A stretch of 46,314 nucleotides of DNA from Geodermatophilaceae bacterium (lineage in GTDB: Bacteria; Actinomycetota; Actinomycetes; Mycobacteriales; Geodermatophilaceae): contig JACCTY010000074.1 of assembly GCA_013812145.1 (NCBI GenBank), positions 1 to 46,314 of the forward strand, written 5' to 3'. Position 1 is the first letter of the stretch. The number at the start of each line of letters is the position of its first letter. Position numbers and translations under genes: made by a program. This document shows, piece by piece, positions 6,681-13,822 of this stretch. The notes under the pieces were generated by a model. It was not told the DNA's origin. It worked only from the letters and a program-made list of their open reading frames with translations, and searched no databases.

Positions 6681-9227
6681 CTAGACGAGGGCAGCCAGCT
6701 CCACGGTGACGGACTCCTCGGTCGACTCCTCGAGCACGAGGTCGCTGACGACACCGGCGACGACGAGGTCCGCGCGGGCGGCCTCGACCGCGGCCAGTCG
6801 GCCCGCCTCACCGGTCACGGTCAGCCGGCTCACCTCCGCCCGCAGCGACACCTGCCGGCTGGACTTGGCCTTGCGCACCTCCGCCAGTACGGCGCTCACG
6901 GTGTCGAGAACGTCGGGACCGGCCGGTCCCGCGGCAGCCCGCAACGGTGCGCTCGTCGGCCACTCGGCCCGGTGCACGGAGCCTGACCGCCACCATGACC
7001 AGACCTCCTCCGTGACGAACGGCAGGAGCGGCGCGAACAGCCGCAGGAACGTCTCCAACGCGAGCGACAGCGCGGCGCGTGCTGACTCCGACTCCGGCCC
7101 CTGCCCGTACGCACGACCCTTGACCAGCTCCAGGTAGTCGTCACAGAAGTGCCAGAAGAACTTCTCGCTGTACTCCAGCGCCCGGTGGTACTGGTAGTCC
7201 TCGAACGCTGCGGTGGCCGCGTCAACGACGTCGGCGAGCACGCCCAGCATCGAACGGTCGACCCCAACCGTCACAGCCTCGGACAGCGGCGCGCCGGACG
7301 TGCCGGCCAGGCCCAGGACGAAGCGCGAGGCGTTGAGCACCTTGTTCGCCAACCGCCGGCCAACCTTCATCTGGCCGGTGTCGACGGCGGTGTCGGTGCC
7401 GGGGGCCCCTGAGCAGGCCCAGTAGCGAAGGCCGTCGGCGCCGAACTCCTCCTGCAGTTGCAGCGGCTCGATGATGTTGCCCTTGGACTTCGCCATCTTC
7501 TTGCGATCGGGGTCGAGGATCCAGCCGTTGATGCTGGTGTTGGCCCAGGGCAGCTCCTCGTGCTCCAGATGCGCCCGCAGCAATGTGGCGAACAGCCACG
7601 TCCGGATGATCTCGGGGCCCTGCGGCCGCAGATCCATCGGGAAGGTGCGCGCGAACAGGTCGGGATCCTCCTCCCAGCCGCAGACGATCTGCGGGCTGAG
7701 TGAGGACGTCGCCCAGGTGTCCATGATGTCGAGGTCGCCGACGAAACCGCCCGGCTGGCCCCGCTGCGCCTCCTCGTAACCCGGCGGCGGTTCGCCCTGC
7801 GGATCCACCGGCAGCGCGGCCTCGTCGCTGAGCATCGGCTTGTCCCAGACCGGCTCGCCGTCTGAGTCGACCGGATACCAGACCGGGAAGGGGACGCCGA
7901 AGAAGCGCTGCCGGCTGATCAGCCAGTCGCTGTTGAGCCCGCCTACCCAGTGCTCGTAGCGGACCCGCATGTGGCCGGGATGCCATACGAGCGCGCGGCC
8001 GCGTTCCAGGAGCCCGTCGCGCAGGCTCGCGTCACGGGCGCCGTTGCGGACGTACCACTGCCGGCTGGTGACGATCTCCAGCGGCCGGTCGCCCTTCTCG
8101 TAGAACTTGACCGGATGCCGGATCGCCCGCGGCTCGCCGACCATGCCGCCGTCGTCCCTGAGCAGGTCGACGATGCGGGCCCGGGCCTGCTTGGCGGTCT
8201 TGCCGGCCAGTTCACCCCAGGCCGTCGCGCCCGATGCGATCAACCAGGGCGGCACGTCGGGCTGGAACCGGCCGTCCCGGCGTACGACGGAACGCAGCTC
8301 CAGGCCGAGTTCACGCCACCAGATGACATCGGTGGTGTCCCCGAACGTGCAGACCATGGCGATTCCGGTGCCCCTGTCCGGTTGCGCAAGCGGGTGCGCG
8401 ACCACGGGCACAGTCACCTCGAACACCGGCGTGGTGACTTCGGTGCCGAAGAGCGGCTTGTACCGAGGGTCGTCGGGGTGCGCGACGAGGGCGACACACG
8501 CCGGCAGCAGCTCCGGCCGGGTCGTCTCGATCTCTACTTGGCTGCCATCCGACCGGGCGAAGAGGAGCCGGTGCGAGGTGGCGTCGACCTCTCGATCCTC
8601 CAGCTCTGCCTGCGCCACCGCGGTGCGGAAGTCGATGTCCCAGAGCGTCGGGGCCTCGGCGGCGTAGGCCTCGCCTCGATGCACGTTGCGGAGAAAAGCG
8701 CGCTGCGCCACCCGCCGGCAGTGGTCGTCGATGGTGGCGTACGTGAGCGTCCAGTCCACTGACAACCCGACTCGCCGCCAGACGTGCTCGAACGCCTTTT
8801 CGTCGACGAGGGTGAGTTCGTGGCACAGCTCGACGAAGTTACGCCGGGAGACGGGCAGCTGCGGCTTACCCTTGGTCGGTTCCGGCAGGGTCAGCTCAGG
8901 GTCGTAGGCAACCGTCGGGTCGCAGCGCACGCCGTAGTGGTTCTGCACCCGGCGCTCGGTGGGCAGCCCGTTGTCGTCCCACCCCATCGGGTAGAACACC
9001 TCGCGCCCACGCATCCGCTGGAACCGGGCGAGGGCATCTACCTGGACGTAGCCGAACACCGATCCGATGTGCAGCTGCCCGCTGACGGTCGGCGGCGGGG
9101 TGTCGATGGAGTAGATCTCGCCGCGATCCTTGGACCTGTCGAACCGGTAGGTCCGCTCCCGCTCCCACGCGGAGTCCCACTTGTCCTCCAGATCGACAAG
9201 CGAGGGTTTCTCGGGCAGACCAACCAT
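6681..9227 (-). CDS. valS: Valine--tRNA ligase (archaeal/rickettsial-type)
   Basis: 848 aa class I aminoacyl-tRNA synthetase that charges tRNA-Val. The signature HIGS (HIGH-type) is at residues 53-56 in TVSGQLHIGSVFGYVQVD, and the second ATP motif is KMAKS at 577-581, where KMSKS is the consensus. The GWDDNGLPTERRVQNHYGV segment and the ETTRPELLPACVALVAHP editing-domain motif fit ValS rather than IleS or LeuS. The length and the GWDDNGLP pattern match the shorter archaeal-type ValS. No valS leader or T-box is visible upstream, and the spacer to the next gene is short. It is a single gene, not in an obvious operon. Confidence 0.9.
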   Translation of the reverse strand: MVGLPEKPSLVDLEDKWDSAWERERTYRFDRSKDRGEIYSIDTPPPTVSGQLHIGSVFGYVQVDALARFQRMRGREVFYPMGWDDNGLPTERRVQNHYGVRCDPTVAYDPELTLPEPTKGKPQLPVSRRNFVELCHELTLVDEKAFEHVWRRVGLSVDWTLTYATIDDHCRRVAQRAFLRNVHRGEAYAAEAPTLWDIDFRTAVAQAELEDREVDATSHRLLFARSDGSQVEIETTRPELLPACVALVAHPDDPRYKPLFGTEVTTPVFEVTVPVVAHPLAQPDRGTGIAMVCTFGDTTDVIWWRELGLELRSVVRRDGRFQPDVPPWLIASGATAWGELAGKTAKQARARIVDLLRDDGGMVGEPRAIRHPVKFYEKGDRPLEIVTSRQWYVRNGARDASLRDGLLERGRALVWHPGHMRVRYEHWVGGLNSDWLISRQRFFGVPFPVWYPVDSDGEPVWDKPMLSDEAALPVDPQGEPPPGYEEAQRGQPGGFVGDLDIMDTWATSSLSPQIVCGWEEDPDLFARTFPMDLRPQGPEIIRTWLFATLLRAHLEHEELPWANTSINGWILDPDRKKMAKSKGNIIEPLQLQEEFGADGLRYWACSGAPGTDTAVDTGQMKVGRRLANKVLNASRFVLGLAGTSGAPLSEAVTVGVDRSMLGVLADVVDAATAAFEDYQYHRALEYSEKFFWHFCDDYLELVKGRAYGQGPESESARAALSLALETFLRLFAPLLPFVTEEVWSWWRSGSVHRAEWPTSAPLRAAAGPAGPDVLDTVSAVLAEVRKAKSSRQVSLRAEVSRLTVTGEAGRLAAVEAARADLVVAGVVSDLVLEESTEESVTVELAALV

Positions 9228-9287
9228 GTATCCGAGGTTAGCCGAGGCTGCGCGGTGGCCGGCCGTACGCCGACGGCTGGGCCCCCG

Positions 9288-10153
9288 TCATGTCCGGAGG
9301 AGTCGGAGATGCGCAGCCAGCAGCCGCTTCCCTGGGCGGGCGCTGACCGGTCTTGGGCGCGACACCGCAGTCCCCTGCAGCGATGCATACGTCGGTGAGA
9401 CCACCTGAGGTGAGATCACAACGCGATTCGAGGAGTCGATGCCGAGCCGATGCAGGTCGAACAGCGTGTGCAGGTCAGATCGCAGCAGCAACCCGTTCTC
9501 CAGGCTGTTCGTGTGTATACCGCGGTAGGGCGAAATGTGTGCGGCCTCCAGGACCTCGGCAGCGGTCTCGCCGGAGATGGCACAACGATGGCCGTAAGCC
9601 TTCAACAGCCCGTCGCGGAAGCCCTTCTGCCCTTGCCGCCGCACGATGTCAGCCAAGACCCATCGACGCGCATCCTCTTCGGATGCCGGGCCCTCAGGAT
9701 CATCTCGGCGAGTGAGCCTGCTATCCCGCGCGCGTAGCCACTGGTCCAGGACGGCCTGTGTCTGCCGGTTAGCGCGACAGACGTTCTGGGGCACTTGCCC
9801 GAAACTTGCTCGCGGAATCGGGTTTCGCTCCAGCGCTCTGCTTGCGGCGATGTCCCACTTGAGATCTACGGACCCGTAGTCGCCGGCGTCGGCATACGTT
9901 TGTGTCGAGCGGGCCAATGCGTAGATGTACTGCCGACCGGCCGCATACAACCACACTGCGTCGTCTGGACGCATGATGTTGAAACCACTGGACAGGCCCC
10001 AGTCGTCGATCCTGTCAGGGTGGCGTTGCAGCCCTCCCACACGTTCTCCGGTGACACCGGCAGCCAGTCCCCGGAGTCCAGGTCCTCCAAGTGATATCGA
10101 GCTGTGGGTCCGTCGTTCGTGGGGTAGAGCCAGTGGGTGGGTGGATCAGCCAT
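9288..10153 (-). pseudogene. EVE-like domain / HNH endonuclease, frameshifted near the N-terminus
   Basis: The ATG at 10153 overlaps the hepT stop by one base (TGATG). It opens ADPPTHWLYPTNDGPTARYH and runs to ENVWEG at about 10035. One base is then out of phase, and the shifted frame continues LQRHPDRIDDWGLSSGFNIM to the stop at 9288. Rebuilt length is about 288 aa. The N-terminal half (MRPDDAVWLYAAGRQYIYAL) resembles EVE/PUA-like domains that read modified bases. The C-terminal half is a clear HNH nuclease: YGHRCAISGETAAEVLEAAH, then SLENGLLLRSDLHTLFDLH. The EVE assignment is by pattern only. A second frame beginning at 10040 gives an open 250-aa protein that keeps the nuclease, so partial activity is possible. 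The translational coupling suggests it belongs with hepT and mntA. Confidence 0.65.
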
Positions 10154-10572
10154 CACTTCTCCCGTTGAAGGTAGGAGTTCACTGCCGAGACGAATCTGTC
10201 GAGGTTCGTGAGGTATGCGAGCCGGGCGAGAACGATGCGATCGTCCACATCGACGTACTCATAGACGAGGACGTTGCGAAAGCCGACCGCCTTGCGCATG
10301 GACTCTGCCAAGTCGGAGGCGAGTACGTCGCTTCGCGCGAGCAGCCCCATCGCTGCGCTGTTGTCGGCCGGAGGACCCCAGCCCTCGGACGAGCAGAAGT
10401 GCTGGGCAACGTCGACGCACGCCTCGATGGTCGTGACGAAGGTGTACTTGATCCCCGGTAGCCACATGGGATCGGCTCGCCGTGATGGCTCGGCGCCGGC
10501 CACGCGCCGTAGTGTGGCGAGCCCCTCGGTGACGGATCTCCGCAGCCGATAGACCCGGACCTCATCGACCAC
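10153..10572 (-). CDS. hepT: HepT-like ribonuclease toxin with a substituted catalytic His
   Basis: 139 aa of the HepT (DUF86) family, HEPN-fold RNases neutralised by a partner MntA. The core KYTFVTTIEACVDVAQHF and the C-terminal GFRNVLVYEYVDVDD are characteristic. The family active site is R-x(4-6)-H-x-Y. Here R99 and Y106 are kept but position 104 is Tyr (codon TAT at 10263-10261) instead of His, a single CAT-to-TAT change. RNase activity is therefore probably reduced or lost, although the Tyr that MntA is known to AMPylate remains. The gene overlaps mntA by 11 nt and is coupled to the HNH gene downstream. Confidence 0.82.
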   Translation of the reverse strand: MVDEVRVYRLRRSVTEGLATLRRVAGAEPSRRADPMWLPGIKYTFVTTIEACVDVAQHFCSSEGWGPPADNSAAMGLLARSDVLASDLAESMRKAVGFRNVLVYEYVDVDDRIVLARLAYLTNLDRFVSAVNSYLQREK

Positions 10573-10972
10573 GGCTCAACGCCTCGACGAACTCCCGGTG
10601 GGCGCGCAGCATCCGCGGCCGCTCGTCGAAGTAGATCTTGCGAGTGGTGGCCACCCATCGGACCCGGGCCGGTGGGTCGTCGTCGTAGAGCAGCTGGCCG
10701 TCCACCGCGATGCGGCCGGCCAGCTCGAGCGGAGCGCCGTTCAGCACGACCAGATCCACGTCGGCCGGGAGGTCCACCTCGAAGGATGCGGGCGCAGCAC
10801 CATCCCACCAGGCCGCGACATCGATGTCCGAGTCCGGCCTTGCCCGGCCGTTCACTCGGCTGCCGTGCAGCAGGGCGAACCGGGCTCCGGCCGCGCGCAG
10901 CACCGCTGTGATCTCCCGCTGCTGCGAGTCGTCCAGCTCCACACCAGTCAGTCTCGCAGCCAGCGCGAGCAT
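10562..10972 (-). CDS. mntA: MntA-like minimal nucleotidyltransferase antitoxin
   Basis: 136 aa from the ATG at 10972. The longer frame back to 11122 runs into a large hairpin, so the upstream part is unlikely to be coding. A GTG at 10942 is an alternative start, and neither start has a strong ribosome binding site. The motif GSRVNGRARPDSDIDV (Gly37-Ser38, Asp49, Asp51) is the nucleotidyltransferase GSx(10)DxD signature. In the known MntA-HepT system, MntA adds AMP to a HepT tyrosine and blocks its RNase activity. Gene order mntA-hepT with a short overlap matches that system. Confidence 0.78.
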   Translation of the reverse strand: MLALAARLTGVELDDSQQREITAVLRAAGARFALLHGSRVNGRARPDSDIDVAAWWDGAAPASFEVDLPADVDLVVLNGAPLELAGRIAVDGQLLYDDDPPARVRWVATTRKIYFDERPRMLRAHREFVEALSRGR

Positions 10973-11085
10973 TCCGACGTCACTTGGATGCGGGTTTCCC
11001 CGGCGGCGATCATGTTCGCCCACGATGTCGGCATCTGGCGCCACGCCTGCTCGTCGGCGACATCCCTTTGGGTTCTGCCGCGCGG

Positions 11086-11149
11086 TGATCAACTCGGGTT
11101 TGTGGTCGTTGCCGAGCGCCAAGAGGCGGCCACAACCCCGAGTTGATCA
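11086..11149. repeat. Long hairpin (23-nt arms) between DUF885 gene and mntA
   Basis: The arms at 11086-11108 and 11127-11149 are reverse complements with two mismatches, and the loop is 18 nt. Both arms end in TGATCA. It follows the DUF885 stop (11158) within 10 nt and precedes mntA, so it probably ends DUF885 transcripts. A second hairpin with similar ends and position lies at 44748-44800. Confidence 0.7.
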
Positions 11150-11157
11150 TGAATAGA

Positions 11158-12825
11158 TCAGAGCGCGGCGAGCTCGGAGGTCAGGTCGGCCAGCCCGATG
11201 GAGCCCATCGACAGTGCGGCCATGTGCCAGCGCTTGAGGTCGAAGTTCGCCCCCTGCCGCCGCTCCGCCTGCGCTCGACCGGCGAGCCAGGCGCGCTCCC
11301 CCAGCTTGTAACTGATCGCCTGTCCGGGGATCCCGAGGTAGCGAACCAGCTCGCTGTCACAGAAGGCCGGGTCCCGGCCCGTGTTGGCGCCGAAGAACTC
11401 CCGCCCGAGTTCCGGCGTCCACCGCTCGCCTGGGTGGAACGGTTGGTCGCGCGGAATCTCCAGCTCCAGGTGCATACCGATGTCGATGATCACTCGCACT
11501 GCACGAATCTGCTGCGCATCCAGGTAGCCCATCCGATGCCCGCGGCCGGTCAGGAACCCGAGTTCGTCCATCAGCCGCTCGGCGTACAGGGCCCAGCCCT
11601 CGGTGTCCGCGCTCGTGCTGCCGATGCTCGTCTGGTACGTCGACAGCTGCGGCGCGACGTGGACCCACTGGGCCAGCTGCAGGTGATGCCCAGGGACGCC
11701 CTCGTGGTACCAGGTGCTGACCAGGTCCCAGAGCGGGAAGCGCTCCCGGCCCAGCGTCGGCAGCCACGTCCGCCCGGGACGGGAGAAGTCCATTGCCGGC
11801 CGGGTGTAGTACGGCGCCGCGGCGCTGCCGGCCGGTGCGATCATCGCCTCGACCCGGCGGATCGGCTCCGCGAGGTCGAAGTGCGTCCCGTCGAGGGTGG
11901 TGATCGCGTCGTCCATCATCTGCTGCAGCCGCTGCCGGATCTCCTCGACGCCCTCGACGGCGTCCCCCTCAGCGTCCAGCCACCGCATCGCCTCGGCCGG
12001 CGTGGAGCCTGGTAGGGCTCGCTCCGCCTCCGCTCGCATCTCGCCGTCGATCCGGGCGAACTCGCCCCACGCCCAGCTGTACGCCTCGTCCAGATCGAGG
12101 TCAGCGCCGGTGAACTGCATGGCCCAGCGGGCGTAGCGCTCGGCACCGACCGCATCCGGAGTGCCCTCGGCGGCCGGGCGGTACGTTTCGCGGAGAAAGT
12201 CCCGGGTCGCGACAACAGCCTCGGTCGCCACCTGTGCGGCCGACTCGAGGGCCTTGCGCTGACTGTCCGGCCCGGCGGCGACGAACGAGCCGAACCAGGA
12301 ACCGGCTGGACCCTTCCCCAGCCACTCGTCGAGTTGGCCGGCCAGAGCGTCGACCTGCCGCGGGGCGGCGTACTGGCCACGGGCGGCGCCACCGGCCAGC
12401 GCAGCGCAGTATCCGTCGTAGGCAGCAGGAATGTTCACCATCCGGCGGGCGATGACCGCCCAGTCCTCGTCCGTCGCCGACGGCATCAACATGAAGACCT
12501 GCCGGACGGTGTGGACCGGCGTGAACGTGTTGTTGACGGCCCGCAGATTCTCACCGGCCGCACTCAACGCCAGGCCGGAGTTGAGCCGGTTACGCAGCAG
12601 CCGCGCACAGCGCCGCTCCAGGGGGTCTTCTGACTCTGGCAGCGCGTCGAGCTCGGCGAGAGTGGACCGGGCCAGATCATCGGTCGCGGCGATCCCGTCC
12701 GGTGACAGGTCAGGAAGCCGGTCGTCGTGCGGTCGGACACCCAATGCGGTGCCGAGCAGGGGATTGAGATCAGCCAGGGCGTCCACATACCGGTCGGCGA
12801 GCTGGCGGGCGGTACGAGCAGTCAT
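11158..12825 (-). CDS. DUF885 family protein, putative metallopeptidase
   Basis: 555 aa from the ATG at 12825 (MTARTARQLADRYVDALADL). It belongs to DUF885. The motif HEGVPGHHLQ at residues 374-383 is the family's HExxPGHH zinc-site pattern, and WYHEG precedes it. The C-terminal region contains the conserved DTEGWALYAERLMDELG stretch, rich in conserved acidic residues. Family members are large alpha-helical proteins thought to be zinc-dependent peptidases; substrates are mostly unknown. The gene is divergent from coxM, with a 109-nt shared promoter region. I see no signal peptide. Confidence 0.82.
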   Translation of the reverse strand: MTARTARQLADRYVDALADLNPLLGTALGVRPHDDRLPDLSPDGIAATDDLARSTLAELDALPESEDPLERRCARLLRNRLNSGLALSAAGENLRAVNNTFTPVHTVRQVFMLMPSATDEDWAVIARRMVNIPAAYDGYCAALAGGAARGQYAAPRQVDALAGQLDEWLGKGPAGSWFGSFVAAGPDSQRKALESAAQVATEAVVATRDFLRETYRPAAEGTPDAVGAERYARWAMQFTGADLDLDEAYSWAWGEFARIDGEMRAEAERALPGSTPAEAMRWLDAEGDAVEGVEEIRQRLQQMMDDAITTLDGTHFDLAEPIRRVEAMIAPAGSAAAPYYTRPAMDFSRPGRTWLPTLGRERFPLWDLVSTWYHEGVPGHHLQLAQWVHVAPQLSTYQTSIGSTSADTEGWALYAERLMDELGFLTGRGHRMGYLDAQQIRAVRVIIDIGMHLELEIPRDQPFHPGERWTPELGREFFGANTGRDPAFCDSELVRYLGIPGQAISYKLGERAWLAGRAQAERRQGANFDLKRWHMAALSMGSIGLADLTSELAAL

Positions 12826-12934
12826 GAACCCATCATTGCCGGAACACCTTGACGCTCGTCGACCGGTCGCGCAGGCTCCATCGCAAACAACGGGGTGCAC
12901 TGGGCGCCCCCTCCCTGGATGGAAGGGGACCGTC

Positions 12935-13822
12935 GTGCAGATTCCGGCCGCGTTCGAGTACGCCCGCGCGGAGAGTCTCGACCACGCCCTGCAACTCCTG
13001 GCCGAGCATGGGGAGGAGGCGCGGGTCATCGCCGGCGGGCACAGCCTGCTGCCCATGATGAAGCTTCGGCTGGCCAACCCGGAGTGGCTGATCGACATCA
13101 ACGACCTGGCCGACCTCGACTACATCACCGAGGAGGGCGACACCCTCCGGATCGGCGCCCTGACCCGGCACGTGAGCCTGCTGGAGTCCGACGCCGTGGC
13201 CGGGCTCTTCCCGCTCGTGCGGGACGCCGAGAAGACGATCGCCGACCCGCTGGTACGCAACCGCGGGACCATCGGGGGCTCGCTGTGCCAGGCCGACCCG
13301 GCCGAGGACCTGTCGACGGTCTGCCACGTCCTACGCACCGAGCTGGTGATCCGTGGCCCGAACGGCGAGCGCACGGTTCCGATGAGGGAGCTGCATCGCG
13401 GTCCGTACGAGACCAGCGTGGAGCAGAACGAGATTCTCACCGAGATCCGCTGGCCGATCCGACCGCGTTCATCCAGTGCGTACACAAAGGTCGAGCGGCG
13501 GGTCGGCGACTGGGCCACGACCGCCGCGGGCGCCTGCCTCACGATGGGTGACGCCGGGCAGATCGAGGACGTGGTCATCGGCCTGACCGCCGTCGGGCTG
13601 GACGGCGGAACCGCCACCCGCGCCGAGGATGCCATCCGCGGTCAGCAGCCAGGTGAGGAGCTGTACGCCGAGGCCGGGCGGTTGGCTGCCGAGGACTGCA
13701 ACCCGGTTGGTGACCAGCGCGGCACGGAAGCCTACAAGCGACACCTGGCCGACGAGCTGACCCAGCGGGTCCTGCGCAAGGCCGTAGAACGTGTCAATTC
13801 CACCGCCGCAGCAAGGAGCTGA
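12935..13822 (+). CDS. coxM: Carbon monoxide dehydrogenase, medium (FAD) subunit
   Basis: 295 aa from the GTG at 12935, preceded by GGAAGGGGAC. The longer upstream frame is antisense to the DUF885 gene and was rejected. FAD-binding signatures are AGGHS (33-37) and TIGGS (112-116, in RNRGTIGGSLCQADPAED). The C-terminus has the CoxM iron-sulfur-facing domain (YTKVERRVGDWATTAAGA). It passes electrons from the Fe-S subunit to FAD and on to the quinone or respiratory chain. It is the first gene of the cox operon, 3 nt before coxS. Confidence 0.93.
   Translation: MQIPAAFEYARAESLDHALQLLAEHGEEARVIAGGHSLLPMMKLRLANPEWLIDINDLADLDYITEEGDTLRIGALTRHVSLLESDAVAGLFPLVRDAEKTIADPLVRNRGTIGGSLCQADPAEDLSTVCHVLRTELVIRGPNGERTVPMRELHRGPYETSVEQNEILTEIRWPIRPRSSSAYTKVERRVGDWATTAAGACLTMGDAGQIEDVVIGLTAVGLDGGTATRAEDAIRGQQPGEELYAEAGRLAAEDCNPVGDQRGTEAYKRHLADELTQRVLRKAVERVNSTAAARS

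Follow-up and report, generated by a model that had tools for sequence, protein, structure and literature searches.

In a member of the Geodermatophilaceae, the genes of a type VII toxin-antitoxin pair, mntA and hepT, are followed directly by a probable type IV restriction gene of the VcaM4I kind, and the arrangement is probably a decaying linkage of the two at a variable junction between a valS-like gene and a DUF885 gene. The adjacency is not a private accident, yet it is not a conserved module either. The locus lies within the 46,314-nucleotide stretch of DNA that was analysed (hereafter the window), and a sequence-only reading had proposed it as a three-gene defence module. The evidence does not support that proposal. 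No intact mntA-hepT-nuclease trio was found in a survey of 115 genomes of the family together with samples from the order and the phylum (the flanks covered spanned 1.5-7 kb, and some contigs stop a short way off), the partners stand separately everywhere else that was searched, and both effectors look disabled, one by a frameshift and the other by replacement of a catalytic His with Tyr. What we describe therefore has the look of two neighbours whose association is fading, not of a new defence system.

On the minus strand of the window, mntA (10562..10972) comes first, hepT (10153..10572, with a GTG start) second and the nuclease gene third. The stop of mntA lies within an 11-nt overlap (10562-10572) with the start of hepT. 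The hepT TGA (10155-10153) has one base in common with the nuclease ATG (10153-10151) in the string TGATG; the order and overlaps described earlier are thus confirmed by the sequence and its open reading frames. The nuclease gene falls into a 5' part in the ATG frame (10011..10153), with about 45 first codons and the start of a putative EVE-like domain, and a 3' part in a second frame (9288..10010), with the remainder of this domain, a linker and an HNH_2 domain. The variable site is flanked downstream by a valS-like tRNA synthetase gene (6681..9227; Pfam tRNA-synt_1 and Anticodon_1) and upstream by the DUF885 gene (11158..13101; Pfam DUF885, 4.9e-141), both also on the minus strand. Upstream of mntA, at 11086-11149, lies an inverted repeat of about 20 nt, made of TGATCAACTCGGGTTTGTGG and its near complement; single matches to it also occur on contigs C11 and C101, and it is perhaps a terminator-like repeat. 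Between 12881 and 16743, the translated sequences resemble the three subunits (medium, small and large) of a hydroxylase of the carbon monoxide dehydrogenase type.

The identity proposed for mntA and hepT holds. HepT, a HEPN RNase-toxin homologue (Pfam HepT-like, 1.8e-18), scores 82.9 bits against a cut-off of 60 for the NCBIfam model HepT_toxin, and MntA, a minimal nucleotidyltransferase antitoxin (Pfam Polbeta, 1.9e-10), passes MntA_antitoxin barely, with 60.9 versus 60 bits; both are equivalog models for type VII toxin-antitoxin. HepT also matches solved HepT toxins in the PDB, down to 1.1e-9. As in the MntA-HepT systems of class I HEPN/MNT (PMC7641770, PMC4621449), mntA is upstream of hepT and overlaps it, the GSX10DXD motif of MntA is intact (GSRVNGRARPDSDID), and the AMPylation-site Tyr is present. 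The true start of mntA may be a GTG about 30 nt downstream. The window differs from these systems in the nuclease gene that follows and in the HepT motif, which reads RNVLVYEY in place of RX4HXY: a TAT codon (10261..10263, minus strand) encodes Tyr where the catalytic His belongs. Among 25 relatives, 24 have His at this position and one has Asp. The earlier description of an AMPylating antitoxin with an RNase toxin consequently stands for the gene identities and the MntA motif, but not for the catalytic His, whose replacement had gone unnoticed.

Because this His is replaced by Tyr, the window HepT is probably inactive. In S. oneidensis, H102A abolishes HepT toxicity (PMC4621449); certain HEPN proteins that lack the motif remain toxic (PMC3710099). 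Within the family, HepT inactivation appears to recur, since four other HepTs lack the catalytic Arg while the GSX10DXD motif is intact at every family locus (L038-L057) where it is readable. Altogether, the catalytic Arg or His is lost in 5 of these 20 HepTs, the Arg in L044, L048, L055 and L056 and the His in L052. A second mntA-hepT pair of the window genome, G000 (C141:9611-10009; L057, L085), has an intact RX4HXY motif and a HepT with 39% identity to that of the window. Pairwise dN/dS between G000 and G072, a genome of another genus of the family, is 0.29 for hepT, 0.22 for mntA, 0.26 for the DUF885 gene and, over the first 98 codons of valS, 0.15. The hepT value corresponds to ordinary constraint, and therefore the gene was constrained until recently and its decay, if real, would be recent. 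A domesticated HepT would also fit several of these observations: MntA and a catalytically inactive HepT would form a regulatory nucleotidyltransferase pair, to which the nuclease is irrelevant. Such inactive HEPN-MNT regulators have been described (PMC3710099), and the MntA motif that persists wherever readable, the missing Arg or His in five family HepTs and the window, and the dN/dS of 0.29 all agree with it. However, the losses in the family and the window are scattered and differ from one another (R to G, R to H, H to D, H to Y). Repeated inactivation accounts for such a pattern better than a single new function would, and we regard domestication as very improbable.

The third gene had been taken to encode an HNH nuclease, and here there is no doubt: its C-terminus is an HNH_2 domain (AAH ... 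NG ... DLHTLFD; 9435..9584, minus strand; Pfam PF13391, E 5.1e-14), and the window frame retains its AAH/N/H motif. With the intact homologue from genome G064 as query, the closest solved relative of the HNH part is VcaM4I (6YEX, E 6.6e-7), an EVE-HNH type IV enzyme (PDB codes from PMC7897488). With VcaM4I and the further modification-dependent (type IV) endonucleases of the EVE-HNH class (PMC7897488; survey in PMC7641849), the predicted protein shares the order of a putative reader, linker and HNH, a length of about 280-310 aa and the HNH family. It differs in an N-domain too diverged for Pfam EVE and in the frameshift of the window copy, and its dependence on modified bases is assigned by analogy. 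Since VcaM4I is the closest solved relative, we infer that the nuclease would target modified DNA. Phosphorothioate-dependent HNH restriction enzymes (NCBIfam NF045808) have a similar HNH domain (E 4e-12); this identity was rejected, as the HNH part alone matches, at 46 bits against a cut-off of 180, and the reader domain is without a match. No nuclease relatives were found in viral contigs, and phage records and plasmids yielded generic HNH_2 relatives only, or nothing. A scan of genome contigs with the C-part of the window nuclease found nothing, and the corresponding scan with the N-domain returned the known homologue only.

The N-domain is likely, but not proven, to be EVE-like. Pfam matched it in neither the window protein nor that of G064, and EVE was the best Pfam family for single members, at E values of 0.012-0.076 that fall short of the cut-off. 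When a nine-member alignment of the domain was compared with Pfam-EVE proteins of Actinomycetota, hhalign gave 89.4%, against a best of 1.65% in 200 column shuffles. Bell et al. reported that many defence EVE domains need sensitive methods for detection, and they list EVE-HNH as a class (PMC7641849). The AlphaFold models were poor (pLDDT 46.7 for the full homologue and 57.1 for the N-domain), and Foldseek searches with them gave no significant fold match; the YTH and cereblon chains among the matches were not significant and were discounted. The EVE/PUA-like domain suggested earlier thus gains support from remote profile comparison, but not from Pfam at its cut-off or from Foldseek with these poor models. 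Similar domains occur in other contexts as well. Proteins of about 450 aa (L065-L069, L071) carry an extra N-terminal region ahead of the EVE-like and HNH parts, and this type is conserved across several genomes from a single other family in the order. The EVE-like domain also makes up a 130-aa protein on its own, with no HNH (L075:7240-7632).

In the window, the nuclease gene is broken. Its ATG frame ends at a stop at 9866, and the HNH part is in another frame. The intact 280-aa homologue of G064 (L004, the same locus as L059; Geodermatophilus sp. DSM 45219) aligns with the ATG frame at 45% identity (tblastn) up to about 10045, and with the second frame at 43% identity over frame residues 5-247, from about 10004 onwards, so that homology switches frame within 10004..10045 (minus strand). 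Within the 5' part, a profile match (A2) falls at 10013-10138. Reader and nuclease share one continuous frame in L004/L059, L062 and L063, and because neither L062 nor L063 is interrupted, the window sequence alone has the frame change. A conserved or programmed frameshift is rejected as far as it can be tested, as each of the relatives keeps to a single frame. The spot where the frame changes lacks a long homopolymer, and the frameshift may be an assembly error in a draft genome of 186 contigs. The start of the nuclease gene does overlap the hepT stop, as claimed for the third gene of the module, but the gene is in two frames and not one open reading frame, a point that the earlier reading conceded only tacitly in speaking of a repaired protein.

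A defence role of the nuclease family is supported by the neighbourhoods of three relatives, all of which sit inside other defence islands. The G064 relative adjoins an Mrr nuclease and two helicases, one a type IV DUF3427 restriction helicase and the other Druantia-like; the G750 relative is beside Lamassu LmuABC, and the G537 relative is beside an MTES_1575 REase and an SMC-type ATPase.

The history of the linkage can be traced at the valS-DUF885 junction (window 9228-11157), which is variable in the genus. In G074, of the same genus, valS and the DUF885 gene are 36 nt apart and the site is empty; the G073 junction holds an Exo_endo_phos-like ORF and another ORF, and that of G075 a DUF4082 protein gene, all unrelated to the trio. 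G072, in contrast, has the order DUF885-mntA-hepT-valS at the same site, with the HepT motif intact. In its 215-nt gap between hepT and valS, 44 codons align in register with the C-terminal end of the nuclease and include one in-frame stop (score 82 versus 59 for the best of 2000 shuffles). Because G072 has both the same order and this 3' remnant of the nuclease, the trio goes back to an ancestor of both lineages, and the G072 lineage lost the nuclease afterwards. As regards a nuclease next to hepT in another genome, no intact pair was found in the genomes surveyed, and the G072 remnant is the one trace of it. These data bear on the view that the two genes inserted by chance at a variable junction and were never functionally tied. 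The contents of G073, G074 and G075 and the separation of the partners everywhere else searched speak for this view. The one-base overlap of hepT and the nuclease gene and the ancestry shared with G072, however, suggest that the two were at the least translated jointly in the ancestor, and chance co-insertion is in our judgement unlikely, although the least unlikely of the alternatives.

Could the three genes nonetheless form a working module? On this account, the EVE-HNH protein would cut modified phage DNA, MntA-HepT would be a back-up RNase released on failure, the frameshift would be an assembly error and the Tyr would be tolerated. The overlapping genes, a second genus with the same order and a nuclease remnant, the related nucleases in defence islands and the draft status of the genome are all compatible with it. 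Nevertheless, G072 lost the nuclease and kept mntA-hepT with an intact HepT motif; the nuclease is absent from beside about 24 other HepT loci (flanks of 1.5-7 kb), and seven genes related to the nuclease or to its N-domain have no mntA-hepT closer than about 7 kb. Furthermore, the His is essential in the HepT tested (PMC4621449), and a working module appears quite doubtful. An ancestral form of the idea, in which an EVE-HNH enzyme was translationally coupled to an AMPylation-controlled HepT released on restriction failure, with intact copies in unsequenced Geodermatophilaceae, is equally speculative. We found no paper on MntA-HepT joined to EVE-HNH, which is weak evidence given the limited literature coverage.

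Under the favoured reading of a decaying linkage, the ancestor of the window lineage and its sister genus would have carried mntA-hepT and then the VcaM4I-like gene between the DUF885 gene and valS. The nuclease, with its EVE-like modified-base reader and HNH domain, would have cut modified-cytosine (phage) DNA alone, and MntA-HepT would have acted as an independent AMPylation-controlled RNase pair. Their tight spacing would have led to shared expression, not to a joint enzyme. In the window genome, the frameshift inside the putative DNA-reader domain splits the nuclease, and with the catalytic His of HepT gone, the activity of both would presumably be lost.

Among the Actinomycetota, these results document a rare and divergent branch of probable EVE-HNH type IV restriction enzymes. 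In one lineage, such an enzyme was linked to MntA-HepT and afterwards, on two occasions, broken or lost. On a small scale, this illustrates how a variable site in the chromosome can collect defence genes and lose them again. Should intact trios exist, the coupling of restriction to the toxin HepT would be directly testable.
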